Shown piece by piece: positions 2,121 through 26,908 of a stretch of 64,000 nucleotides of DNA. The first letter of the stretch is position 1. Every line of letters begins with the position of its first letter. The DNA lies in NCBI RefSeq assembly GCF_000312525.1, contig NZ_HE997452.1, positions 166,519 through 230,518 on the forward strand, given 5' to 3'. The position numbers were made by a program, and so were the translations under genes. The notes below the pieces were generated by a model. The model was given only the letters and a program-made list of their open reading frames with translations, searched no databases and was not told where the DNA came from. The DNA comes from Bartonella florencae. GTDB lineage: Bacteria > Pseudomonadota > Alphaproteobacteria > Rhizobiales > Rhizobiaceae.

Positions 2121-4471
2121 TACAATTTTTTCGCATGGTAAGCCGCAAGCATTGCAATATTGACAACATCGGTGTCATTTCCACTAAATGGAACAATTTG
2201 AACAGATTTTTCTAATCCAATCAAAATAGGTCCAATAATGGTCGCCTCACCAAGCTCTTGCAACATTTTGTTCGCAATAGAAGAGGCATGAAATCCAGGC
2301 ATTATTAAAATATTCGCTGGTTTCGTTAATCCCATAAAGGGATATTGCTGCATCAATTTTAAATTGAGCGCCACATCAGCACTCATTTCTCCATCAAATT
2401 CAAAGTCAACTCGACGTTCATGCAAAATATTAATAGCATCCTGAATATGCTGCGTAACTTTTCCTTTCATGTAACCAAAAGTAGAAAATGCTACAAAAGC
2501 AACTCTTGACTGATATCCAAACCCATGAACAAAAGACGCTGTTTGTTCCGCTATATCAGCAAGTTCTTCAGCGTTAGGATCTTCATAAACAGCAGTATCC
2601 GCAATAAATACAGTTCGCCCACGGCAAATAGCCATTGAGATACCAATCAACCGTTCTTTTGGTTTTTCATCAATCACTCGACGTATATCAATCAGCGCTG
2701 TTTCATAATTGCGTGTTACCCCTGTAACCATGGCATCAGCATCGCCTAGTGCGACCATACAAGCAGCAAAATAATTGCGGTCATTATTGATACGACGGTG
2801 ACAATCACGCAACAACCAACCTTGGCGTTGCATTTTCGTATAAAGATAATTCGCATAAGCATCCGTGCGACAGGAAAGCTTAGCGTTCATGATAGAAATA
2901 CCTTCACGCTCAAGGTCAATACCAGCAACAGCAGCAGTTTCTTTCACTTGTTCTTCACGACCAATCAAAATCACTTTTCCTAGTTTTTGATGAACATAGG
3001 AAACAGCAGCCCGCATGATCGGCTCTTCTTCACCTTCTGCAAAAACGATTTGTTTTGGGGCTTGACGAACATGATTATAAACGCCACGCATCATGGAAGA
3101 AGTTGGATCACGTCTTGCATTCAAATCACGCTCATAAGCTTCTAAATCATCAATGTGCTTCTGGGCAACACCGCTTTCCATTGCTGCTTTTGCCACCGCC
3201 ATTGAAACAACTGTAAACAAACGTGGATCAAAAGGAACAGGGATGATATAATTTGGCCCAAATTTTAATCGCTTTCCACGGTAGGCTTCTGCAACACTGT
3301 CAGGCACTTCCTCATGCGCCAAACGAGCAAGAGCCTTTGCAGCAGCAATCTTCATATCCTCATTGATAACCGTTGCACGAACATCAAGTGCACCACGAAA
3401 AATATAAGGAAAACAAAGAACATTGTTAATCTGATTTGGATAATCCGAGCGACCTGTTGCCACAATGGCATCACTACGTACTTGCATAACCTCTTCTGGG
3501 GTAATTTCTGGATCGGGATTAGCCATAGCAAAAATGATCGGCCGTGGTGCCATGGACTTTACCATCTCAGGGGTAATTGCACCTTTAGCAGAAACCCCAA
3601 AAAACATGTCAGCGCCTTCCATTGCTTCAGCAAGTGTACGTTTATCCGTTCGAACAGCATGGGCAGACTTCCACTGATTCATTCCCTCTTTACGCCCTTC
3701 ATAGACAACACCCTTTGTATCACAAAGGATAATATTTTCAGATCGAAATCCCATCGCCTTAATCAGTTCAATACAAGCAATACCGGCAGAACCAGCACCA
3801 TTACAGACTAACCGCGTATTTTGCATATCACGCCCTGTTAGCTTCAAAGCATTGAGCGCACCAGCAGCGACAATAATTGCTGTACCATGTTGATCATCAT
3901 GAAAAACAGGAATCTTCATTACCTCGCGTAAGCGGCTCTCAATCATAAAACACTCTGGTGCTTTAATATCTTCAAGATTGATGCCACCAAAAGAAGGTTC
4001 CAAATGACGCACAAGATTGATAAAAGTTTCTGGATCGTTTGTATCAATTTCTAGATCAATGGAATCAATATCGGCAAAGCGTTTAAAAAGCACTGCTTTG
4101 CCTTCCATCACTGGCTTAGATGCAAGAGCACCTAAATTGCCTAAACCCAAAATAGCTGTTCCATTTGAGATAACCGCAACAAGATTGCCCTTTGCTGTGT
4201 AATCATAAGCACAGGCTGGATTTTGAGCAATGGCTTTAACCGGAACAGCAACACCTGGTGAATAAGCAAGTGCTAAATCATGCTGTGTTGCCATAGACTT
4301 AGTTGCAACAATTTCAAGCTTTCCAGGCCGACCACGACTATGAAAATCAAGGGCTTCTCGCTCACTAGCGTTATAAATCGTTTGAGATGTCTTTTGATCT
4401 TGCTCACTTTTTTTCATATCACTCAATCTTCTCCACAAACCTTGCAAATTCTGCTCTATAATGTGTGTCAT
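2120..4471 (-). CDS. maeB: NADP-dependent malic enzyme with phosphotransacetylase-like domain
   Basis: MaeB decarboxylates malate oxidatively to pyruvate with NADP reduction in the cytosol. At up to 783 residues it is the long hybrid form. Roughly residues 20-450 are the malic enzyme domain, with the substrate-side A-Y-S-P-G-V-A motif, H-D-D-Q-H-G-T and the nucleotide-binding G-A-G-S-A-G. From about 470 on it carries a phosphotransacetylase-like domain, which in this family is generally regulatory rather than catalytic. Two starts are possible: ATG at 4471, with no good ribosome site, and ATG at 4417 (M-K-K-S-E-Q), which has a GAG-containing site. I favour 4417 slightly. The gene is divergent from mutS. 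Confidence 0.93.
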   Translation of the reverse strand: MTHIIEQNLQGLWRRLSDMKKSEQDQKTSQTIYNASEREALDFHSRGRPGKLEIVATKSMATQHDLALAYSPGVAVPVKAIAQNPACAYDYTAKGNLVAVISNGTAILGLGNLGALASKPVMEGKAVLFKRFADIDSIDLEIDTNDPETFINLVRHLEPSFGGINLEDIKAPECFMIESRLREVMKIPVFHDDQHGTAIIVAAGALNALKLTGRDMQNTRLVCNGAGSAGIACIELIKAMGFRSENIILCDTKGVVYEGRKEGMNQWKSAHAVRTDKRTLAEAMEGADMFFGVSAKGAITPEMVKSMAPRPIIFAMANPDPEITPEEVMQVRSDAIVATGRSDYPNQINNVLCFPYIFRGALDVRATVINEDMKIAAAKALARLAHEEVPDSVAEAYRGKRLKFGPNYIIPVPFDPRLFTVVSMAVAKAAMESGVAQKHIDDLEAYERDLNARRDPTSSMMRGVYNHVRQAPKQIVFAEGEEEPIMRAAVSYVHQKLGKVILIGREEQVKETAAVAGIDLEREGISIMNAKLSCRTDAYANYLYTKMQRQGWLLRDCHRRINNDRNYFAACMVALGDADAMVTGVTRNYETALIDIRRVIDEKPKERLIGISMAICRGRTVFIADTAVYEDPNAEELADIAEQTASFVHGFGYQSRVAFVAFSTFGYMKGKVTQHIQDAINILHERRVDFEFDGEMSADVALNLKLMQQYPFMGLTKPANILIMPGFHASSIANKMLQELGEATIIGPILIGLEKSVQIVPFSGNDTDVVNIAMLAAYHAKKL

Positions 4472-4627: not shown

Positions 4628-7372
4628 ATGGAGAAGAAAATAAACCATAAAAATAATTTAATTCCACAGCCCGCTCCCTCATCTGCTTCTCATCAACAAC
4701 GTCTCACACCTATGATGGAGCAATATATAGAAATCAAGGCAGTCAATAATGATTCCCTGCTTTTTTATCGTATGGGTGATTTCTATGAACTCTTTTTTAA
4801 TGATGCGGTTGAAGCTTCTCAAGCTTTAGGAATTACACTCACAACACGTGGAAAACATTTGGGTGAAGATATTCCTATGTGTGGTGTTCCTGTTCATGCT
4901 GCTGATGATTATTTGCAAAAACTCATTGCTCGCGGATACCGCGTTGCTGTTTGTGAACAAACAGAAGATCCTGCAGAAGCAAAAAAACGTGGATCAAAAT
5001 CGGTTGTTCGCCGTGATGTCGTCCGCCTTGTAACACCTGGAACCATAACCGAAGAAAAGCTCCTTGATCCAACGCGTGCGAATTATCTGATGACACTTGC
5101 CCGCATCAAAACTCATGAGGGAGAAGATTTTGCGCTTTCTTGGATTGATATCTCAACAGGCATCTTCCGTGTAACCGAAAGCCGTCATGAAAAACTTTTG
5201 GCAGACATTATGCGCGTAGACCCACAAGAAATCATTGTGGCTGATTCTTTTTTTCATGATAAATCCCACAAGGCACTTTTTCATGTGCTGGATCGCATCA
5301 TTTCTCCTCAACCTGCTAGTCTCTTTGATGCAGTTACCGCTGAACGCGATATTTGCAGTTATTTTAAACTCTCAACCCTTGAAGGTGTTGCCGATTATTC
5401 GCGTCCAGAACTTTCTGCAATTGCTGCTGCTATTCGTTATATCGAAAAAACACAAATCACACATCGTCCTCCTCTCATGCGTCCTGAGCGCCAAAATGAA
5501 AGTGCTACCCTTTTCATTGATGCTGCAACCAGACTCAGTCTTGAATTGGTTCGAACCACATCAGGACAACGAGATGGAAGCTTATTAAAAGCCATTGATC
5601 GCACTGTCACGGGAGGAGGATCACGTCTTCTTGTTGATCGCCTTATTGCTCCTCTTACCACGCCTTCGGCTATTGAACATCGTCTCAATTCGGTTGCCTT
5701 TTTTTTACGAAACACCTCCCTTGCAGAAGCCATAAAGCTTATTTTAAAAGGGGGACCAGATATGCCGCGCGCAGTTTCACGTTTGGCACTTGGACGAGGT
5801 GGTCCTCGTGATATGGCAGCAATCCAGCGCGGCTTTGAAATTATTCGTGAGATTCACCAGCTTCTTAACAATGAATTGCTTCCTCAAGAAATAAGTGACG
5901 TACAACAGGTTTTCTCACATCTCCCTACTGCTTTACATTGTCATTTAGAAAAAGCATTAGCGGATGATCTTCCATTGCTTAAACGTGATGGCGGTTTCAT
6001 TCGCCCGCAATATCATAAAGAGCTCGATGAAATGCGTGCTTTACGCGATGAATCTCGCCGTGTTATTTTGGAACTTCAAGCGCAATATGCCCAAGAAACA
6101 GATATTAAGACTCTTAAAATCAAGCATAATAATATTCTAGGCTACTTCATTGAAGTAACCAATATACAAGCATCTGCACTTACCAATAGCCCGCAAGCCA
6201 AAGCACGTTTTATTCATCGCCAAACAATGGCAAGTGCTATGCGCTTTACCACAACAGAACTTGCCGACCTTGAAAGCCGTATTGCCCATGCCGCTAACCA
6301 CGCTATGACACTTGAGCTAGAAATTTTTGATACTCTTGTGCATGAAATTACTGAACAGGTTGATTTCATTCATAACGCTGCTGAAGCACTTGCTATTTTG
6401 GATGTATCGGTTGCATTGGCGCATCTGGCTGAAGAACAAGGATATTGTCGTCCTAAAATTGATCATTCTCTTACCTTTCATATCACCGCGGGGCGCCATC
6501 CTGTCGTAGAGCAAGCGCTTCGTAAACAAGCAGCAGAGCCTTTTGTTGCCAATAACTGTGATCTATCCGTACAAGATAATCATCAATATGCGGCAATCTG
6601 GCTGTTGACAGGCCCCAATATGGGAGGAAAATCTACTTTTTTACGGCAAAATGCTCTCATTGCTATTATGGCGCAAATGGGTTCCTTCGTTCCAGCGGCT
6701 TCAGCACATGTCGGCGTTGTTGATCGCTTATTTAGTCGTGTTGGTGCTTCTGATGATCTTGCACGAGGACGCTCAACTTTTATGATGGAAATGGTTGAAA
6801 CAGCAACGATTCTTAATCATGCTAGTCACAAGTCCCTTGTGATTCTTGATGAAATTGGACGGGGAACATCAACCTTTGATGGCCTTTCCATTGCTTGGGC
6901 TGCCGTTGAATATCTTCATGAAGTTAATCACTGTCGTGCTATTCTTGCCACGCATTTTCATGAAATGACAGCCCTGACCGAAAAGCTTGAACGCCTTCAT
7001 AATGTTACAATGAAAGTTAAAAATTGGGATGGTGAGGTGGTTTTTCTTCATGAAGTAACACCAGGCGCCGCAGATCGGTCCTATGGCGTACAAGTTGCAA
7101 AGCTTGCCGGTCTTCCACCAGCCGTTATTACCCGTGCTACAAATGTGCTACATCAATTAGAACAGGGTGAAATGGCTGGAAAAGGACATAAACTCATTGA
7201 TGATTTGCCACTCTTTTCCCTTAAAGCAGCATCTCCTGCAAATGAAAAAATACAAAAACATTGTGCGCTTCATGAAGCTTTAAAAAATATCCATCCTGAT
7301 GAACTTTCTCCTAAGCAAGCTTTAGAAGCACTTTATCACCTTAAACAATTGGAAAAAAATAATCCTTTATAA
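4628..7372 (+). CDS. mutS: DNA mismatch repair protein MutS
   Basis: MutS recognises mismatches and small loops and starts methyl-independent or MutL-dependent repair. With the ATG at 4628 it has 914 residues. The mismatch-reading motif F-Y-E is at residues 52-54 in the context G-D-F-Y-E-L-F. The ABC-type ATPase domain carries Walker [10 protein letters not shown] at about 662-670, Walker [16 protein letters not shown], and the H-loop T-H-F-H-E. The open frame extends 8 codons upstream to a TTG at 4604, but ATG at 4628 is the more usual start; neither has an ideal ribosome site. The gene is complete, so loss of mismatch repair is not indicated. Confidence 0.97.
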
Positions 7373-14860: not shown

Positions 14861-17800
14861 ATGGGACATTATGGTGTGCACAATATCTCTCATGGAATGT
14901 TTTTTTCTCAACAAACTAAAATGCATCATTTTACTAAGATCCATTTTCCTCTTCGCTCAACTTATAAAACGCAGGATGAACTTTATAAATTAGGCCAAGA
15001 TATCGCCTCTAAAAAAGAAATTTTACTGCCTGAATATAAAGGAGAAAATTATTTTTACAGAAGATTGAATGAAAACACAAAACTCATTCTCCGTGTCTTT
15101 CATACCAGTGATATTGCCGCTCGCAACGATGAAACCATTGCACCATCCGCTCAATGGCTTATTGATAATCATTATACAATTGATAAAACCATACAACAGC
15201 TACGCCGTAACTTATCCAAATCCTTCATCAAGCAACTTCCCCCTTATCAACAAGGAGCAGATATACCACGTATCTTTGTTTTGGCTTGGCTTTATATCGC
15301 CCATACAGATAGTGAATTTTCACAAAAAACACTCACAGCTATGATCAACGGATTTCAAGAAATTTGTGCCCTAAAAATTGGCGAATTATGGGCACTTCCT
15401 TCTGTTATACAAATGCTGCTCATTGAAAATGTCTATCGTCTTTCACTACGCATCGAACAAACACTTTATATGCGTCATCTTGCAAATAAAGTTGCTCATC
15501 AAATTTTTCTTGCAGACAATGAAATAAAATTACACTCTCTTTTTACACGTTATAAATCTTTCACTGTTAATCCAAGTTTTTCAGCACATTTATTTTACCG
15601 TCTACGCAGTGCACCTGTTGATTCAACAACAGCATTAACTTGGCTTGAAAAACAATTACAAAACAAAGACAGTAACCCAGAAACTGCTACAGCAGATGAA
15701 CATACATACCAAGCCGCAGATGGTGTGACCATGGGCAATATTGTCCGCTCCCTTAAAGCTATTGATAACGTTGATTGGACAACATGGTTTGAAACTGTCA
15801 GCTCTGTAGATTCTATCTTGCGTGAAAAGAGTGATTTTTCCGAAATTGATTCTCACTCACGTAATATCTATCGGCAAGTCATTGAAAAAATTGCACGCTT
15901 TTCGACTCTTAGTGAATTGGAGGTTGCACACAAAGCTATAGAAATGACATATTCCACTTCTGAAAAGATACAGCATCATCCCTCTATTGGATGGTATCTT
16001 GTCGGTGATGGACGTTATGCTTTTGAAAAAGCCTGTGGTTACACCCCATCTTTACTTGTAAAGTGGGCACGATTTTTTTCCTGCTCAAAGATAGGAATCA
16101 TTGCCATTCCTGTTTCTTTTTTAACGCTGACTCTTTTACTTGCAACCTACACTCTCTTACAGATATCTGGCATAACACCATGGATGGCTGTGCTTTTTAC
16201 TGCATTAGCGCTTTTTCCTGCTATGGATGCTGCTTTTGCTTTCTTCAACTCTATTGTTTCATGGACTATTCCATCAAAACAGCTCATCGGTTATGAATAT
16301 AAAGAAGGTATTCCGGAATACGCACGCACAATGGTTGTTGTGCCTACTTTAATTACCTCACACGATGATATTGATGAACAAGTACACAATCTTGAAGTGC
16401 ATTATCTTTGCAACCCAAAAGGTGCCATCCATTTTGCACTTATCACAGACTGGGTTGATGCTCTCTTCGAGCAAACACAAGATGATCTTGATCTTTTGAA
16501 TTATGCGCAAAAGAGCATTGATAAACTCAATTGCCGTTATCATCGCAATGATATCCCTCTCTTTTTTCTTTTACATCGTCGACGCCTTTATAATCCCAGC
16601 GAAAAATGCTGGATGGGATGGGAACGCAAACGTGGCAAACTTCATGAACTCAATTTATTATTAAGAGGTGATAAAAACACAAGCTTTTACCCAACCAATC
16701 CACATCTTCCTATGGATTGCCGTTTTGTTATGACACTGGATGCTGATACACGCCTTACCCCTGAAAGCGTTACAAAACTCGTTGGAAAACTTAACCATCC
16801 ACTTAACCACCCCATTTTTGACCAGCAAAACGGAAGTGTTGTAAAGGGCTATAGCATTTTACAACCCCGTATTACACCTTCTCTTACAACAGGAAAAGAA
16901 ACATCACTTTTACAACAGATTTTTTCTACTAATCGTGGCATTGATCCTTATGTCTTTGCTGTTTCTGATACCTATCAAGATCTTTTGGGAGAAGGGACTT
17001 TTATTGGCAAAGGACTTTATCATATTGATGCCTTTCAACAAGCACTTGATGGAAAAATTAAAGAAAATACTGTTCTTAGTCATGACCTTTTGGAAGGAGG
17101 ATATGCCCGTGCTGCGTTGGTAAGTGATATAGAAGTTATTGAAGATTATCCCACAACCTACAATGTTGATGCTATGCGACAACACCGCTGGATTCGCGGT
17201 GATTGGCAACTTTTGCCTTATCTTTTTTCCCACCGAAAAATAAACTCCATTACACGGTGGAAAATGCAAGATAATTTGCGTCGTTCTCTTACACCATTAA
17301 TGTGGTTGATTGCAGCAATCACAGGGTGGTTTCTTTTACCTTTAAAGAGTGCAATCATCTGGCAAATATTCTTGATTTTTAGCCCCTTCATCTCACTTAT
17401 TTTAGACGTCTTAAAAACGCTTATTCCATCACATATTGATTATTCTTTGCGCGCATATCTTCAATTAATTTTTAAAAAAATCACCCTTACTGCTGCAAAT
17501 ATATTTCTTAAAATTACATTCCTTGCTCATTCCGCTTATTTTATGACGAATGCAATTATACGAACTCTCTATCGCATGACAATTTCAAAACAACATCTTC
17601 TTGAATGGAAAACCTCAGCTGCGATGAAATCAACCCCTAATAGTTTGAGTTTTTATATTCTTATAATGTGGCCAGCATCACTTTTGGGGGTTCTGGCCAC
17701 AACATTGTTTCTCTTTTCGAATACTTCCGGCAGCTTTATCGCTTTACCCTTTGGGTTCATATGGTTTTTTTCACCCTTGATTGCGTGGTTTGTCAGTCAA

Positions 17801-20800
17801 ACTTCAACATTTCAAGATACCCTTGATATATCTTCTGAAGATAAAAAAGCACTGCGATCTATTGCACGGCGGACATGGCTTTATTATGCAACCTTTGTTA
17901 ATGCGCAAAGCAATTATTTACCCCCCGATAATTTCCAAGAAGATCCTGAACCTCTTGTTGCTCATCGCACGTCTCCTACAAATATTGGAGTTTATCTTCT
18001 TTCCATTATAGCTGCACGTGATTTTGGCTGGATTAGTTTTGAAGAAACCATAAAACGTATTGAATATACATTAAACTCTCTTACAAAAATGGAAAAATTC
18101 CGTGGGCACCTCTACAATTGGTATGCAACAGATACCCTTAAACCTCTTTTGCCCACTTATGTATCAACCGTTGATTCAGGTAATCTCGCTGGCCATTTGA
18201 TAGCACTCTCTTCAGCCTTAAGGGAATGGGCTAAAAAACCTCATGTTTTTTTTCAAAGTGATCTGGCAGGCTTATCTGATGTTCATACTGTTCTTGAAGA
18301 AACTATCAAAGAAATTCCGAATAATGAGCATAATTTACATCCATTACGCCAAAAAATCGAAGAACATATCACCAATTTTCATCGCTCTCTCAGTGCTTTT
18401 GTAGCAAAACAAGATACTCTTCTTTCTCACATTACTAGTCTTGCGCTTACTGCCCGTGATATTGTGCACTTAACAGATGAACTTAATGAAAAAGTTCAAA
18501 CAACAGAATCCGCACGTGCTCTTTCTTGGGCAAAATGCCTTGTAGAAACTTGTGAAGCTCATCATTATGACGCTACTGGTGACTATGACAACGAAAAACT
18601 ATGTGAACAATTAAATATCTTAGCTATAACGGCACGGCAAATAGCTTTTGATATGAAATTTGACTTTTTAGAACAGCCTGAACGACATCTCTTATCTATC
18701 GGATATCGTGTTCAAGAAAACAAACTCGATGAAAATTGTTATGATCTGCTTGCTTCAGAAGCACGTCTTGCAAGCTTTTTTGCTATAGCAAAAGGAGATA
18801 TAAAACTTAAATATTGGTTTCATCTTGGTCGACTCCTCGTCCCTATTGGTTGGAACGGTGCACTTTTATCATGGTCTGGTTCTATATTCGAATATCTTAT
18901 GCCATCTCTTGTTATGCATGAACCTTTGAAGTCTCTCCTAGATCAAACACATCGACTGATTATTCGTCATCAAATAAAATACGCCCACAAACGCGGATTA
19001 CCATGGGGTATTTCGGAAGCTGCATTTAATGCTCGTGACCACTTAATGAACTACCAATATGCTAATTTTGGTGTTCCAAGCCTAGGACTCCAACGTGGTC
19101 TCTCACGTAATGCTGTTATTGCTCCCTATGCCAGCCTGCTAGCGGCACAATATGTACCTCACAAAGCCGTAAATAATTTAAAACGGTTGCGTGATTTTGG
19201 AACTTTAGGAACATATGGTTATTACGATTCTATTGACTTTACCGCCTCACGCGTAAAGACAGGAGAAAAATACGCTGTTGTACGAAATTATTACGCACAC
19301 CATCACGGCATGTCCATTCTCGCTGTTGACAATGTTATTTTTCAAGGACGAATGCGTGATCGCTTTCACCGTGATCCAATCATTGAAGCCGTACAATTGT
19401 TATTACAGGAAAGAGCGCCACACCACATTCCTATCATTCATACCAAAGTTGTTTATCACATGCGTGATAATTCTCAAGAATTTAACGACGCCCCTTTGCG
19501 CATTATCAAAAACCCACTGCTTAAACCACGTGCAACTTTGCTCTTATCCAATGGTTCCTATTCTACAATGTTGACAGCGAATGGTTCTGGCTACAGCCGT
19601 TGGCATGATTATGCAATTACGCGCTTTATTCCTGATGCAACAGAAGATCAACAAGGTACTTTATTCTTTATACGTGATACGCATAGTGGTCGGTGGTGGT
19701 CGGTTACAGGTGAACCAACACGTGTTGTTGAAGAAGAAGCAGTCTGCACTTTTACAGATGAAAAAGCTGAATATACAAAAGTGGTTGATGGTATTAAATC
19801 AACACTTGAATGTCTTATTACATCTGCAGGGTGTGGCGAAGGTAGACGTATTCAACTTATGAATACAACACATAAAGACCGTCTCATTGAAGTAACCTCT
19901 TATGGTGAACTTACACTTGCAACTATAGACTCAGATTGTGCTCATCCTGTCTTTTCACGTATGTTTATAGAGACAGAAATTGCTGAAGAAGGAAAAATAA
20001 TTTTTGCTAAAAGGCGTAAACGCTCTCCTCATGACCCTGAGATTCATATTGCCCATTTTGTCACTGATCCAACGAATACTCTCAGAGAAACAGAAGCTGA
20101 AACAAATCGTTCGTTATTTATTGGTCGAGGGCGTTCTATTCACCAACCTGCTGCATTTGATAAAAATACTCGTTTTCGTAACAGTCAAGGGTGTGTTCTT
20201 GATCCGATTGTCTCACTGCGATGCCGTGTAAAAATTCCAGCACATGAAAAAGTTGAGCTCATTTTTTGGACTTTTGCTGCGCATACAAAAGAAACCCTAC
20301 TCAATCATATTAAACATTATCGACAACCCAATATATTCCAGCAAGAATTTTCAATGGCATGGACACGCTCGCAAGTATCGCTGTATCAGAGCGGTATTGA
20401 CCTTAAAAAAGCTATTATCTATCAAAAATATGCAACACCACTTATCTATCCTGATCAAACATGGCGTCTTCCTCCAAAAAACTTAGCAAAAAAACTTGGT
20501 CAACAATCTGATCTTTGGCCCATGTCCATTTCAGGAGACATTCCACTGTGTCTTCTCAGATTAAATAACGAGGGAGATATTGCTGTTGTGCATGAGTTGT
20601 TGAAAGCTCATGAATATTGGCGTATGCGTGGGCTCATTGTTGATCTGGTTATTCTCAATGAACAAGCGTCTTCCTATATACAGAATACGCAACATGCTGT
20701 TGAATGGGTATGTGAATCTTATCGCTACCACACTCATAACACAGAGGAACGTCAACATATTTTTACGCTTCGGCGTGATCAAATGAATGAACAGAGTTTT

Positions 20801-23455
20801 AATACACTTCTTGCATCAGCTTGTATTGTTTTGCACGCCCAAAGTGGTTCTTTATCTGAACAGCTGAAACGAATTAATGGGAGTGATTTCGATTTAGCAA
20901 CTCGTAAGAGTCATCAAGAGTTTCATTATAAATTAAACTTCCAAAAAAATAGCGAAGAAAGATATGGAACAAAACAAACCGAACAAAGCCTCTTTTCTTC
21001 CATTGGTCTTATCAGTCAACAAAAATCTTTTCCTATCCTCGTTGACGGAAAAGACCTGCAATATTGGAATGGTTATGGTGGATTTAATCATCATAACTAT
21101 TATGTGATCCGTCTTCGAGGACATACCACCACACCCCATCCGTGGATTAACGTCATTGCTAACAAAAGCTTTGGCTTTCATGTGTCTGCTGAAGGGGCAC
21201 TCTTTACTTGGGCTCACAATAGCCGCGATTATCAATTGACCCCTTGGAGCAATGATCCTGTTTCCAATCGCCCAGGAGAAGCTCTTTATCTTGTAGATCG
21301 CCTGTCTTTAAAACGTTTCTCACCCGTTTCTGCTGTAGAATGTGACGAAAATATTGTCTACGAGGCTTGTCATGGTTTTGGATTCTCAACTTTTAAATCG
21401 ACACATTCAGAAATCGCATTAGAACTGACTCATACACTCGACCTAGAGAAACCTGTTCGCTTTTCACGTCTTATCCTCAGGAATGAAGGGGAAAAACCAC
21501 GCAGTTTACGCCTTTATAATTATGTTGAATGGGTTTTGGGAAATGTCCGTACAAAATATGCTCCCTTTATTGTTCCCTCTTATGAGGCTAAATGGGGGAC
21601 ACATTTTATTCAAAATCCCTATCATATTGAAAAATCTCAACAAGTCACATTTTTATCAGCATCCGAAATGCCAACCAGCACCACAACCAATCGCAGCGAA
21701 TTTATCGGTGCAACAGGAACCGTAACACATCCAAATGCGATCCATAAAGCCAGTGCACTTTCCAATACCATTGAAGCAGGATGTGATCCTTGTTCAGCAT
21801 TTGCTTATGATATTGACCTTCTTCCAGGACAAACAAAAGAAATCATCTTCTATCTTGGCTGCGCTGAAAATAGAAAAGAAGCTGAAAAATTACTCAATCA
21901 AGTACGTGCAAGTGATTTTGAAACTTTGCTTACACAACAAAAACAATATTGGAGTGATTTTGTTTCTCCACTCCAAGTAAAAACACCCGATCCCTCTTTT
22001 GATATTATGGTCAATTATTGGCTTCCTTACCAAATCTATGCTTGCCGTATGATGGCACGTGCTGCCTTTTATCAAGCCAGTGGTGCATTTGGCTTCCGTG
22101 ACCAATTACAAGATAGCCTCTCTTTATTATTATTAAAACCACAACTAGCACGTGAACAATTGTTAAATGCCGTGGCACATCAATTCCCTGAAGGTGATGT
22201 ACAGCATTGGTGGCTACCTGACACCAATGCTGGTGTTCGCACACGCATTTCTGATGATATTGTTTGGCTTGCATATGCAACAGCTCTTTATGTTAATAGC
22301 ACTGGAGATGATGCTTTTCTTGATACTCTCATCCCCTTTATTGAAGGAGATGTTCTCAATAGTGGGCAACAGGATTCTTATTTTCAATCCACCCAATCCT
22401 CAAAGGTTGCAACACTTTATGAACACTGTGCTTTAGCTTTAAATCTTGCCATAAAGCGCTGTGGACAACATGGTCTTCCCCTTATTTTAGGGGGTGATTG
22501 GAATGATGGCATGAATTTGGTAGGTACGAAAGGGAAAGGTGAAAGCACTTGGTTAGGATGGTTTCTTGGTACCACACTACAAGCATTTATCCCCCTTGCA
22601 AAAAAACGTGATGACAGCACTCGCGTACAAGAATGGAGTGTGCATTTTGAGCGTTTGAAAAAATCTCTAGAAAAAAATGCTTGGGATGGTGCTTGGTATC
22701 GACGTGGTTATTTTGATGATGGAACCCCTCTTGGCTCTCAAATCAATGATGAATGCCAAATTGATACCATTGCTCAATCTTGGGCTGTCATTTCTCAAAT
22801 GGCACCGCTCGAGCGCCAAAAACAGGCTATGACCTCAATGCTTGAACGTCTCTATGATGAAAAGGGAAAACTTCTACGTCTTTTCTGGCCCCCTTTTGAT
22901 AAAACAACTCTCGAACCCGGTTATATAAAAGGTTATCCCCCAGGTATTCGAGAAAATGGTGGTCAATATACCCATGGCGCTATTTGGAGCATTTTAGCGC
23001 TTGCACAAATGGACGAAAGCGATAAAGCCTATCATTTATTTTCCACGATTAACCCTATTAATCATGGACAAAATCCTGAAACTTATCGTGTTGAACCTTA
23101 TGTGATGGCCGCAGATATCTACGCCGTTGAACCACACCGTGGGCAAGGGGGGTGGACATGGTATACAGGTTCAGCAGGCTGGTTCTACCACGCTGCAACA
23201 CAAGCAATTCTTGGAATACAGCGTCAAGGAGATATGTTGTTTTTAAAGCCACATTTACCCTCTATTTGGCCCGAATATGAAGCAAAAATGAAATTTTATG
23301 AGGCTGTTTATATTCTTAAAGTGAAATGGGGATCTAAAAATACACTCAGTGTTAATGGGAGAAAATATGCTCATGTTCAAACAGGAATAAAGTTGGAAAA
23401 AACTGGAAAACATGAAGTCATACGCACACTTAAATCCTCAGAACAGCAAAACTAA
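14861..23455 (+). CDS. ndvB: Cyclic beta-1,2-glucan synthase (NdvB/ChvB/Cgs)
   Basis: This giant inner-membrane enzyme (2864 residues; Brucella Cgs is about 2,870) starts, elongates, trims and cyclises beta-1,2-glucan from UDP-glucose. About 1-400 is an N-terminal cytosolic region. Membrane segments lie near 410-475. The GT84 glycosyltransferase domain has L-D-A-D-T at 626-630 and the R-Q-H-R-W motif at 773-777. More membrane segments occur near 815-865, 895-920 and 945-1000. A large glycoside-domain region follows, and a C-terminal GH94 phosphorylase-like domain sets chain length, with G-G-D-W-N-D-G at about 2544-2550 and [10 protein letters not shown]. The ATG at 14861 has no clear ribosome site. 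The frame is intact. The exporter gene (ndvA/cgt) is not in the window. Confidence 0.95.
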
Positions 23456-25229: not shown

Positions 25230-25616
25230 TTATGAAGATGGGCGCGTTACTATATAAATGGCAATAAGCAGTAAAAGTGCAGCAACCAATAAAGCAAACC
25301 ACAAAACAGGATGCGCTATTATTAGAAAAGATAAAAAACCACCTGCTATACTTATGACCGCCAAAATTTTAATAAATGTAGAAACAGCCTTTTTTTCTTC
25401 CCACTGCTTAATAGGTGGACCAAAGACGGGGTGATTATGCAACCAACGATGAAAACGCGGTGATGAGCGAGCGAAGCACCATGAAGCAATTAATAAAAAT
25501 GGCACAGTTGGCATAATAGGTAATACTATACCGATAACCGCCAATACAATCATTGCACAACCTGCTACATAATAGCAAATACGCAAAGGGCGAGATATTT
25601 TAAAATCTTTTTTCAT
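25230..25616 (-). CDS. DUF454 / YbaN family inner-membrane protein
   Basis: This 128-residue protein shows the YbaN pattern. It has a first hydrophobic segment around 13-33 with G-I-V-L-P-I-M-P-T-V-P-F-L-L, then the conserved C-F-A-R-S-S-P-R-F-H-R-W-L-x-x-H-P-x-F-G-P-x-I-K-x-W cytosolic loop, then two hydrophobic segments at about 80-120. The function of the family is unknown. AAGAGG directly abuts the ATG, which is unusually close for a ribosome site, so the start is slightly uncertain. It lies downstream of the sit operon and the candidate small RNA but is probably expressed separately. Confidence 0.85.
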   Translation of the reverse strand: MKKDFKISRPLRICYYVAGCAMIVLAVIGIVLPIMPTVPFLLIASWCFARSSPRFHRWLHNHPVFGPPIKQWEEKKAVSTFIKILAVISIAGGFLSFLIIAHPVLWFALLVAALLLLIAIYIVTRPSS

Positions 25617-25807
25617 CCTCTTGTATTATTTCTCTCCATGTAAGATAACTCTACATATTTTCTTACTTTTTTATATCATAACTCACGCATATTACTTTAT
25701 TTATCATTGTATTTTCTGTGACAACTTCTTCTAAAGCACAAAACAGTTTACGCAGTGTGAGGATCATTTTAAAATTTTCAAGAAATAGAAATAAATTTCA
25801 GGAAAAG

Positions 25808-25926
25808 AAAAAATAAAAAGGCTGCAGAATAAATCAATGCAGCCTCTTAATTACGAATGCAGTGTTGGGGGGAGAAATACATACTGCATTCATCCACTAG
25901 GTGTTAGGAGGAAAATAACCTAGCGC
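25808..25926 (-). ncRNA. Candidate anti-Shine-Dalgarno small RNA (alpha-r14 / cuckoo / CcsR-like)
   Basis: Read on the minus strand this is about 119 nt with three hairpins. Hairpin 1: CTAGGT (25923-25918) and ACCTAG (25902-25897), loop containing CCTCCT. Hairpin 2: GAATGCAGT (25891-25883) and ACTGCATTC (25863-25855), loop containing CTCCCCCC. Hairpin 3: AGGCTGCA (25845-25838) and TGCAGCCT (25826-25819), followed by TTTTTATTTTTT, an intrinsic terminator. Two C-rich anti-Shine-Dalgarno loops plus a terminator is the layout described for the alphaproteobacterial alpha-r14/cuckoo family and Rhodobacter CcsR RNAs. A CTTGTC-N17-ATAAAA promoter-like pair at 25961-25933 would start the RNA near 25926. 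It lies 77 bases after sitD, so a processed 3' UTR of the sit mRNA is an alternative. Confidence 0.65.
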
Positions 25927-26002
25927 CGTGCCTTTTATTTAAAACAAACATAAGAGACAAGACACAAAAATGCATGGCTGATATGCATAAACTTTAGAAA
26001 AT

Positions 26003-26908
26003 TCAAATTTCTTGGACCGTGGTTCGGCGAAAGAAAATCGACGTGAAAATAGCAATAAAAATCAGTGTCAAAATCAATACAATTGTTGAAGCAGAATCAG
26101 AACCGATAAATAAGCTAAGATAAATCCCTAAAAAACCAGAAAAAGCTGCAACAAATATAGCAATTACCAACATAAAAGAAAATCGTTTTGTGACAAGATA
26201 AGCAATTGCTCCTGGTGCTATCAGTAAAGAAATAACAAGCACAATTCCAACAGCTTTCAAAGCTGCAACAATCGTGAGAGAAATCATCGTTAAAAGAGTA
26301 TAATGGAGCAATGATATTCGCAACCCCATTGCACGACCTTGTACCGAATCAAAAATATACAGCATAAAATCACGCCATTTTGCTGCTAAAATAAAAGTAA
26401 CAATGGCAGAAATGATTGCTGTCTGTGTAATATCAAGCCAATTAACGCCCAACAGATTACCAAATAGAATATGATTTAAATCTAAGCTACTATAAATAGA
26501 TGTTGCCAAAACAAGCCCTAAACCAAACATCGATGAAAAAACAACACCCATCACTGTATCCTGTTTGATACGACTATTGCTTCCTAAAAAACCTGTTGTA
26601 AGTGCACAAACCATACCCGCAACAAAAGCACCACAAGTAATCAAAGTCATAGTAATATTCTCTGGACGCATATGCTGAAACCAAGCAAAGGGCAAAGAAG
26701 TTAAAAATGCTATCACCCACGGTGTTGCCATATAACCAACAACAACACCTGGAAAAACTGCATGGGAAATGGCATCGCCTAACAGAGCCCATCCTTTCAA
26801 AATAAGAAAACAGGAAAGCATTGCCATTGGAACAGAAAGGATTATAACAATAAGCATGCCTTTCAGCATAAAAGAAAACTGAAAAGGAAGTAGTAATTGA
26901 TCAATCAT
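26003..26908 (-). CDS. sitD: Manganese/iron ABC transporter permease SitD (YfeD)
   Basis: This 301-residue polytopic membrane protein of the ABC-3 family has about eight hydrophobic segments. It has the family hallmark G-W-A-L-L-G-D-A-I-S-H-A-V-F-P-G-V near residue 35, the site that contacts the ATPase, and a late G-I-V-L-V-I-S-L-L-I-A-P-G-A-I-A-Y segment. It should pair with SitC to form the channel. It is last in the operon and its ATG overlaps the sitC stop by four bases. Confidence 0.93.
   Translation of the reverse strand: MIDQLLLPFQFSFMLKGMLIVIILSVPMAMLSCFLILKGWALLGDAISHAVFPGVVVGYMATPWVIAFLTSLPFAWFQHMRPENITMTLITCGAFVAGMVCALTTGFLGSNSRIKQDTVMGVVFSSMFGLGLVLATSIYSSLDLNHILFGNLLGVNWLDITQTAIISAIVTFILAAKWRDFMLYIFDSVQGRAMGLRISLLHYTLLTMISLTIVAALKAVGIVLVISLLIAPGAIAYLVTKRFSFMLVIAIFVAAFSGFLGIYLSLFIGSDSASTIVLILTLIFIAIFTSIFFRRTTVQEI

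Follow-up and report, generated by a model that had tools for sequence, protein, structure and literature searches.

A divergent ar14-type small RNA beside the sit operon of Bartonella florencae, with a predicted LsrB/VtlR-type regulator

The window, that is, the whole stretch of 64,000 nucleotides of Bartonella florencae that was analysed, holds on its minus strand a small RNA gene flanked by a sitD-like gene and a DUF454 gene (Table 1). Its transcription probably starts near 25931. No open reading frame of at least 20 codons lies entirely within the RNA on its own strand, and the opposite strand holds one of 28 codons. Elsewhere in the window, a 2864-codon open reading frame (14861-23455, plus strand) presumably encodes a cyclic beta-glucan synthase.

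Table 1. Position of the small RNA gene, its parts, its predicted promoter elements and its neighbours (numbering of the window).
Feature	Position	Strand	Remarks
Small RNA, divergent ar14 (NfeR1/cuckoo-type) ortholog	25814..25931	-	ar14 match across the whole model, below the gathering score
Hairpin 1	25895..25925	-	8 bp including one G-U; 15-nt loop; CCUCCU at 25911-25906
Hairpin 2	25853..25893	-	11 bp including one G-U; 19-nt loop; CUCCCCCC at 25874-25867
Terminator hairpin and T-run	25815..25847 (hairpin 25847-25817)	-	loop without anti-Shine-Dalgarno (anti-SD) motif
LysR-type (LsrB/VtlR-like) box TGCATATCAGCCATGC	25972..25987	-	near-palindrome, predicted from sequence
-35-like element CTTGTC	25956..25961	-	its TTG begins 11 nt past the box
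Weak -10-like element ATAAAA	25933..25938	-	17 nt past the -35-like element; partly conserved
sitD-like metal ABC permease gene	26003..26908	-	upstream neighbour; Pfam ABC-3
DUF454 gene	25230..25616	-	downstream neighbour; Pfam DUF454

The two hairpins with C-rich loops and the terminator that the initial annotation had described on this strand are borne out by both sequence and fold, and its description of the stems as perfect is nearly right, each of hairpins 1 and 2 having one G-U pair. The terminator stem has an 8-bp Watson-Crick core, extendable to 10 bp, and is followed by TTTTT; it was missed by a simple terminator scan that allowed loops of 3-8 nt, the actual loop being 11 nt long. The minimum free energy of the RNA is -38.5 kcal/mol, against -19.5 (sd 3.2) in 200 dinucleotide shuffles (z -5.91). 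Hairpins with a stem of 8 bp or more and CCTCC or CTCCC in the loop number five over the entire window, and the single tandem pair is the RNA locus; 60 dinucleotide-shuffled windows gave a mean of 1.0 single hairpin (maximum 5) and no tandem pairs.

By DNA search, 32 of the 37 Bartonella genomes and none of 24 others from the order showed the RNA. Once the five misses were checked, a copy was present in all 37 (G000-G036), four being recovered by inspection of the locus (G007, G014, G018, G021) and one by the ar14 model (G012). In an alignment of 37 Bartonella copies, which leaves out that of G012 (C65), standard pairs make up 95.9% of the pair cells. The search for compensatory changes in the stems, proposed as a check when the RNA was first described, gives the structure qualified support: the stems score 0.256 for covariation, whereas shuffles average 0.200 (sd 0.007) and six slid controls reach at most 0.089. 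Neither comparison is a clean one, the first being inflated by relatedness and the second favouring a structure taken from one row. Changes on both sides occur somewhere across Bartonella in 9 of the 29 stem pairs, five of these in helix 1, and one of the five covariation measures, the number of further pair types, is not above the shuffles (29 versus 29.2). By this comparative evidence, the RNA gene is real and conserved.

Among Rfam families, ar14 (RF02344) is by far the best for the B. florencae copy, with 34.0 bits against a gathering score of 58.8 (E 1.1e-4 on 501 bases, E 0.0075 among 35 kb), so that the covariance search suggested at the outset names the family and stays below its cut-off; positions 25600-26100 gave no match to ar15 (RF02345) at E up to 10. 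The three hairpins of ar14, with the terminator as the third, are present in this copy, and CCUCCUCCC, described for all three loops in ar14, does not occupy all three here (loop 1 has CCUCCU, loop 2 CUCCCCCC and the terminator loop no such motif). Common descent with accepted members is indicated by the same locus, the same box and stems that can be aligned with those of copies over the cut-off. When 61 Bartonella genomes were searched with the ar14 model, 13 had a match over the cut-off (72.7-87.2 bits), all with SitD nearby, 23 further genomes had weaker matches alone (28-50 bits), and 1 of 14 control genomes matched, below the cut-off. The B. florencae copy was not returned by this whole-genome search or the other ones with ar14, which means that sub-threshold copies are lost in that mode. 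Across the order at large, ar14 was found at E up to 0.001 in 39 of 121 genomes, with 14 over the cut-off, and in 0 of 14 controls. Conversely, a model built from 27 diverged copies (R1, which leaves out the G033 copy, both copies of G009 and the 7 copies of the deep clade) recovers the deep-clade copies at 56-67 bits. Outside Bartonella, it reaches E<0.05 at 4 of 30 ar14 loci, with 35.9 and 32.5 bits as the best scores; scores near 30 are weak evidence, since the same model matched the wrong strand of locus L034 at 30.7 bits.

From these comparisons, the RNA is best described as a divergent ortholog of the ar14 (NfeR1/cuckoo) family. The membership in alpha-r14/cuckoo claimed by the initial annotation thus stands by descent, through same-locus orthologs at 73-87 bits, and does not stand by score; lacking both the cut-off score and the motif in all three loops, the B. 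florencae copy is not counted as canonical ar14. The B. florencae genome yielded no credible second copy (best 11.6 bits, a threshold at which 9 of 14 control genomes match). In 12 of the 13 Bartonella genomes over the cut-off, a second, weaker ar14-like element was noted at 46-58 bits, seen at L125 3236-2859 (minus strand), L124 2620-2967 and L126 2631-2976; the L125 element lies near purH, behind a DUF1127 open reading frame (2992-3144) with a LysR-type box upstream, and resembles the CcaF1-CcsR layout.

The DNA upstream of the RNA is conserved as well. In the 37-copy alignment, the TTGT of the -35-like element is at least 90% conserved, and the strict arrangement of box, 11 nt and TTG is found in 32 copies, the other five deviating. 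The 15 bases 25985-25971 agree at 12 of 15 positions with the Brucella VtlR motif as quoted in PMC12595884, and the other strand of the box fits GCAT-N3-TG-N3-T, a form quoted in PMC7486931; the spacing of the box departs from TGCA-N6-GCAT, the form stated for NfeR1 in PMC10746234. Box and spacing occur exactly twice in the B. florencae genome, at the ar14-type locus and at the locus of an AbcR-like RNA; since the pattern itself derives from these two sites, what the search adds is the absence of a third exact occurrence. At one or two mismatches, three further sites appear (backward control 1), and the loose box pattern alone is noisy, with 160 matches at up to 2 mismatches against 68 in the backward control. 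Among 41 Bartonella genomes, 40 have a match at no more than 1 mismatch, and the 68 box matches (backward control 1) comprise 40 of the ar14-locus type (37 assigned by position and three, from G061-G063, by match sequence alone), 24 of the AbcR type and 4 others. In Bartonella, the box marks mostly an ar14-type and an AbcR-type RNA. A 30-mer taken from the promoter only, searched over GTDB genomes, found 37 stretches, 36 in Bartonella (one genome twice) and one in Candidatus Tokpelaia, and all 37 have an ar14-like copy within 250 bp; the RNA of Candidatus Tokpelaia scores 62.7 bits to ar14, above the cut-off. At the 30 ar14 loci of other genera, the box is found at up to 2 mismatches in 3 and at up to 3 mismatches in 10 (downstream control 2 of 30), so that its exact form is not a general ar14 trait. 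The DNA immediately preceding the RNA (TGTTTTAAATAAAAGGCAC) has an exact 19-nt match at L002 1501-1519, which was considered as a shared promoter and rejected for its reverse orientation; the gene downstream of it in L002 looks to us like pgk.

These elements bear on the promoter class. The upstream CTTGTC-N17-ATAAAA had been read as resembling RpoH geometry, and the arrangement of the RNA as the CcsR layout. An RpoH-driven, CcsR-like stress RNA would agree with the match of the deep-clade copy in L057 to Rfam CcsR1 (28.0 bits, cut-off 65.3) and with CTTG, which is common to the RpoH and RpoD promoter consensus forms. It is nevertheless highly improbable: the -10-like ATAAAA is unlike the RpoH1 form quoted in PMC8844928, no DUF1127 gene lies beside the RNA (the one DUF1127 match of the genome is elsewhere, at C2:383383), and a conserved LysR box is found instead. 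The TTG is conserved, yet the standout is this box, and ar14/NfeR1 in S. meliloti is described as RpoD-dependent and LsrB-activated (PMC10746234, PMC7143759). Neither the RpoH reading nor the CcsR layout, with its DUF1127 neighbour and RpoH promoter, could be upheld.

The position of the RNA after the metal importer had been taken as a hint of a metal link. A SitD match stands beside the RNA in 36 of the 36 Bartonella loci examined, and DUF454 in 35, B. bacilliformis (G009) being the exception. None of 30 ar14 loci of other genera had SitD or DUF454 within its 1.5-kb flanks, some of these loci showing generic ABC similarity to SitB, so that proximity to sit looks like a feature of Bartonella rather than of the family. 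Moreover, in all 7 deep-branching Bartonella loci that were measured, sitD and the RNA lie about 1 kb apart, and in L057 this gap holds a glycosyltransferase-25 gene. With SitD absent beside the RNA in other genera and distant from it in the deep-branching loci, the metal link loses its footing. The same data weigh on the idea that the sit operon simply ends in this RNA, as a 3' untranslated region and terminator devoid of independent function. The RNA starts about 72 nt past the sitD stop, a simple scan finds no terminator between the two, and the RNA terminator could serve sit too; even so, this idea is very unlikely, as the RNA has its own conserved box and TTG, its stems covary, the wide gap recurs in the deep-branching loci, and Candidatus Tokpelaia has box and RNA in an 8-kb locus that gave no match to the seven window neighbours. 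In B. bacilliformis, locus L041 holds tandem RNA copies (5279-5385 and 5539-5654, minus strand), and the DUF454 match is absent from the genome.

The second exact box points to a candidate regulator. The B. florencae genome has a single LysR-type HTH match (E up to 1e-6), and the box sits about 0.75 kb from it, just beyond the end of that gene. The best Rfam family of the RNA behind this box is ar15/AbcR, with 23.6 bits against a cut-off of 40, and its box fits the published GCAT-N3-TG-N3-T on neither strand. The LysR gene (301 aa) adjoins a thioredoxin reductase gene (TIGR01292, above cut-off). Its product matches A. tumefaciens LsrB (PDB 9HH1; PMC11975290) end to end at 442.6 bits, the next match scoring 100.5, and retains C144 and C273, both cysteines conserved among LsrB homologs. 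By its sequence, the only LysR gene found in B. florencae is an LsrB/VtlR ortholog. This gene arrangement has been described in Brucella, with vtlR and abcR2, and in S. meliloti, with lsrB and the abcR genes (PMC12595884, PMC8844928). In Bartonella, each of the 24 AbcR-type boxes has the best LysR match of its genome no more than 3 kb away, the AbcR-type RNA itself having been inspected in the B. florencae genome alone. LsrB/VtlR as the regulator of the ar14-type RNA is therefore put forward as a well-supported prediction. Across 41 Bartonella genomes, LysR-type matches (E up to 1e-6) number exactly one in 32 and 6 to 16 in 9, and these 9 are the genomes whose ar14 copy passes the cut-off; a circuit leading from one LysR protein to two small RNAs seems to be what survived the loss of the other LysR regulators. 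By analogy with LsrB in Agrobacterium and Sinorhizobium, the RNA may receive a redox input, and the oxidative-stress role first proposed by way of the metal importer would survive by this other route. The sole DUF1127 match of the B. florencae genome, mentioned above (L128 1495-1647, plus strand), is preceded, at a distance of about 80 bp, by GCATGTCTGTTAT (L128 1402-1414), a sequence of the form GCAT-N3-TG-N3-T. In Brucella, DUF1127 genes are described as VtlR targets (PMC12595884), and this gene as a third target of the box is suggestive only, as so short a pattern must, by estimate, recur by chance many times.

The loops, which would be the active parts of the RNA, vary across Bartonella. 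Loop 1 keeps CCUCC in 36 of the 37 aligned copies, G020 being the exception. CUCCUCCC is present in 7 terminator loops and, for loop 2, in 17 copies; in place of it, loop 2 holds a C-tract (5-10 C) in 18 copies and CCUCCU in a single one, and one copy shows none of these. Conservation of the loops across Bartonella, whose absence the initial annotation would have counted against its reading, holds for loop 1 and gives way in loop 2, through its C-tracts, and in the terminator loop. All three loops carry CUCCUCCC in 7 of the 37 copies, the aligned ones among those over the ar14 cut-off, which belong to one deep clade, and the strict nonamer CCUCCUCCC is found in all three in 0 of 37; in the B. 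florencae copy, none of the loops has CUCCUCCC. In a tree built from the SitD of 36 genomes, a branch with 100/100 support sets the three-loop clade apart, and the C-tract form of loop 2 is limited to one 100/100 clade. As read from this distribution, the B. florencae form has lost the terminator-loop motif, and its loop 2 has turned into a C-tract. It could be argued that the loop 2 of this one clade is a slippage-prone C-tract, a contingency locus that varies seed length and thereby retunes the targets under the sole remaining LysR regulator; we hold this to be quite unlikely. Within the C-tract clade, G020, sister to G002, has a broken loop 1 (CAUCCU) and CUCCUCCC again in loop 2 (L030 1505-1618, minus strand), as if at least one anti-SD loop must stay; either the active loop may have been exchanged, or the pattern may be an artefact of assembly in this one draft genome of about 390 contigs.

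The current model proposes a trans-acting small RNA of the ar14 type, about 118 nt long, that is activated by LsrB/VtlR and blocks the ribosome-binding sites of chosen mRNAs, and we consider it probable. The LsrB/VtlR-type LysR regulator would bind the box 11 nt upstream of the TTG and activate transcription from an otherwise weak promoter. As expected from the family, loop 1 (UUUUCCUCCUAAC), and perhaps loop 2, would then pair with GGAGG-type ribosome-binding sites and thereby block translation of the chosen mRNAs. Homology, conservation of the locus, structure and the shared box are seen directly, and it is from these that we infer regulator binding and pairing to ribosome-binding sites. In S. 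meliloti, NfeR1 is reported to be undetectable in an lsrB mutant and to silence mRNAs via three redundant anti-SD loops (PMC10746234). Against the ribosome-binding sites of 47 window open reading frames, with rough start sites, the mean pairing energy is -7.4 for loop 1 (shuffled loops -6.7, sd 0.64) and -8.0 for loop 2 (shuffled loops -8.2, sd 0.66). In this sample of window genes alone, neither loop has a clear broad preference for ribosome-binding sites. These values also concern another reading, a general translation brake, in which the loops would imitate the 16S rRNA 3' end and pair unselectively with most Shine-Dalgarno sequences. Loop 1 does carry CCUCCU, which we take to be the hexamer of the rRNA anti-SD, and indiscriminate repression has been proposed by the authors of the BbsR14 work (PMC7717549). 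Such a brake is unlikely here, however: loop 1 reaches -10 kcal/mol at only 11 of the 47 sites, the UUU before and the UAA after the hexamer have changed little among the diverged copies, a pattern compatible with selective pairing, and NfeR1 is reported to act on particular mRNAs (PMC10746234). Selective blocking under LsrB/VtlR remains the reading that we prefer.

The family assignment would tie a Bartonella RNA, BbsR14, which is given no family in the accessible text of PMC7717549, to a well-studied rhizobial family, and it predicts a regulator. No link of any Bartonella RNA to ar14, LsrB or VtlR was found in the literature consulted, which covered few subscription papers. In PMC3927594, Bartonellaceae appear among the families represented in a group of small RNA models, the anti-SD models SmelA075 and SmelA099 included, and the model concerned is left unspecified there.

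Among known systems, the closest is ar14/NfeR1/cuckoo, with which the RNA shares three hairpins, anti-SD loops, a length of about 120 nt, a terminator as third hairpin and a LysR-type box upstream, and whose cut-off is passed by orthologs at the same Bartonella locus. NfeR1/ar14 is described with CCUCCUCCC in all three loops (PMC10746234). In contrast, the B. florencae copy is below the cut-off and has CCUCCU in loop 1 alone, a C-tract in loop 2 and a terminator loop free of the motif; it also differs in the lack of a detected second copy and in a box spacing other than that of NfeR1. BbsR14 of B. bacilliformis, described with two TTCCTCCTAA loops and a higher level at pH 8 than at pH 6 (PMC7717549), appears from its loops to be the counterpart of the RNA: B. 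bacilliformis Ver097 has two tandem copies at the same locus, one of them with two TTCCTCCTAA loops, whereas the B. florencae copy carries this motif in loop 1 only. AbcR/ar15 (RF02345) has a likely member in B. florencae with the same LysR box and spacing, but differs in structure and sequence, the ar14-type RNA having no ar15 match. Finally, CcaF1-CcsR1-4 of Rhodobacter sphaeroides resembles the RNA in its C-rich anti-SD loops and as a stress RNA. The CcsR RNAs (RF02791), however, are reported to share a transcript and its RpoH promoter with a DUF1127 gene (PMC10253847); neither such a gene nor such a promoter is seen at the RNA locus, where the neighbours are sitD and DUF454.
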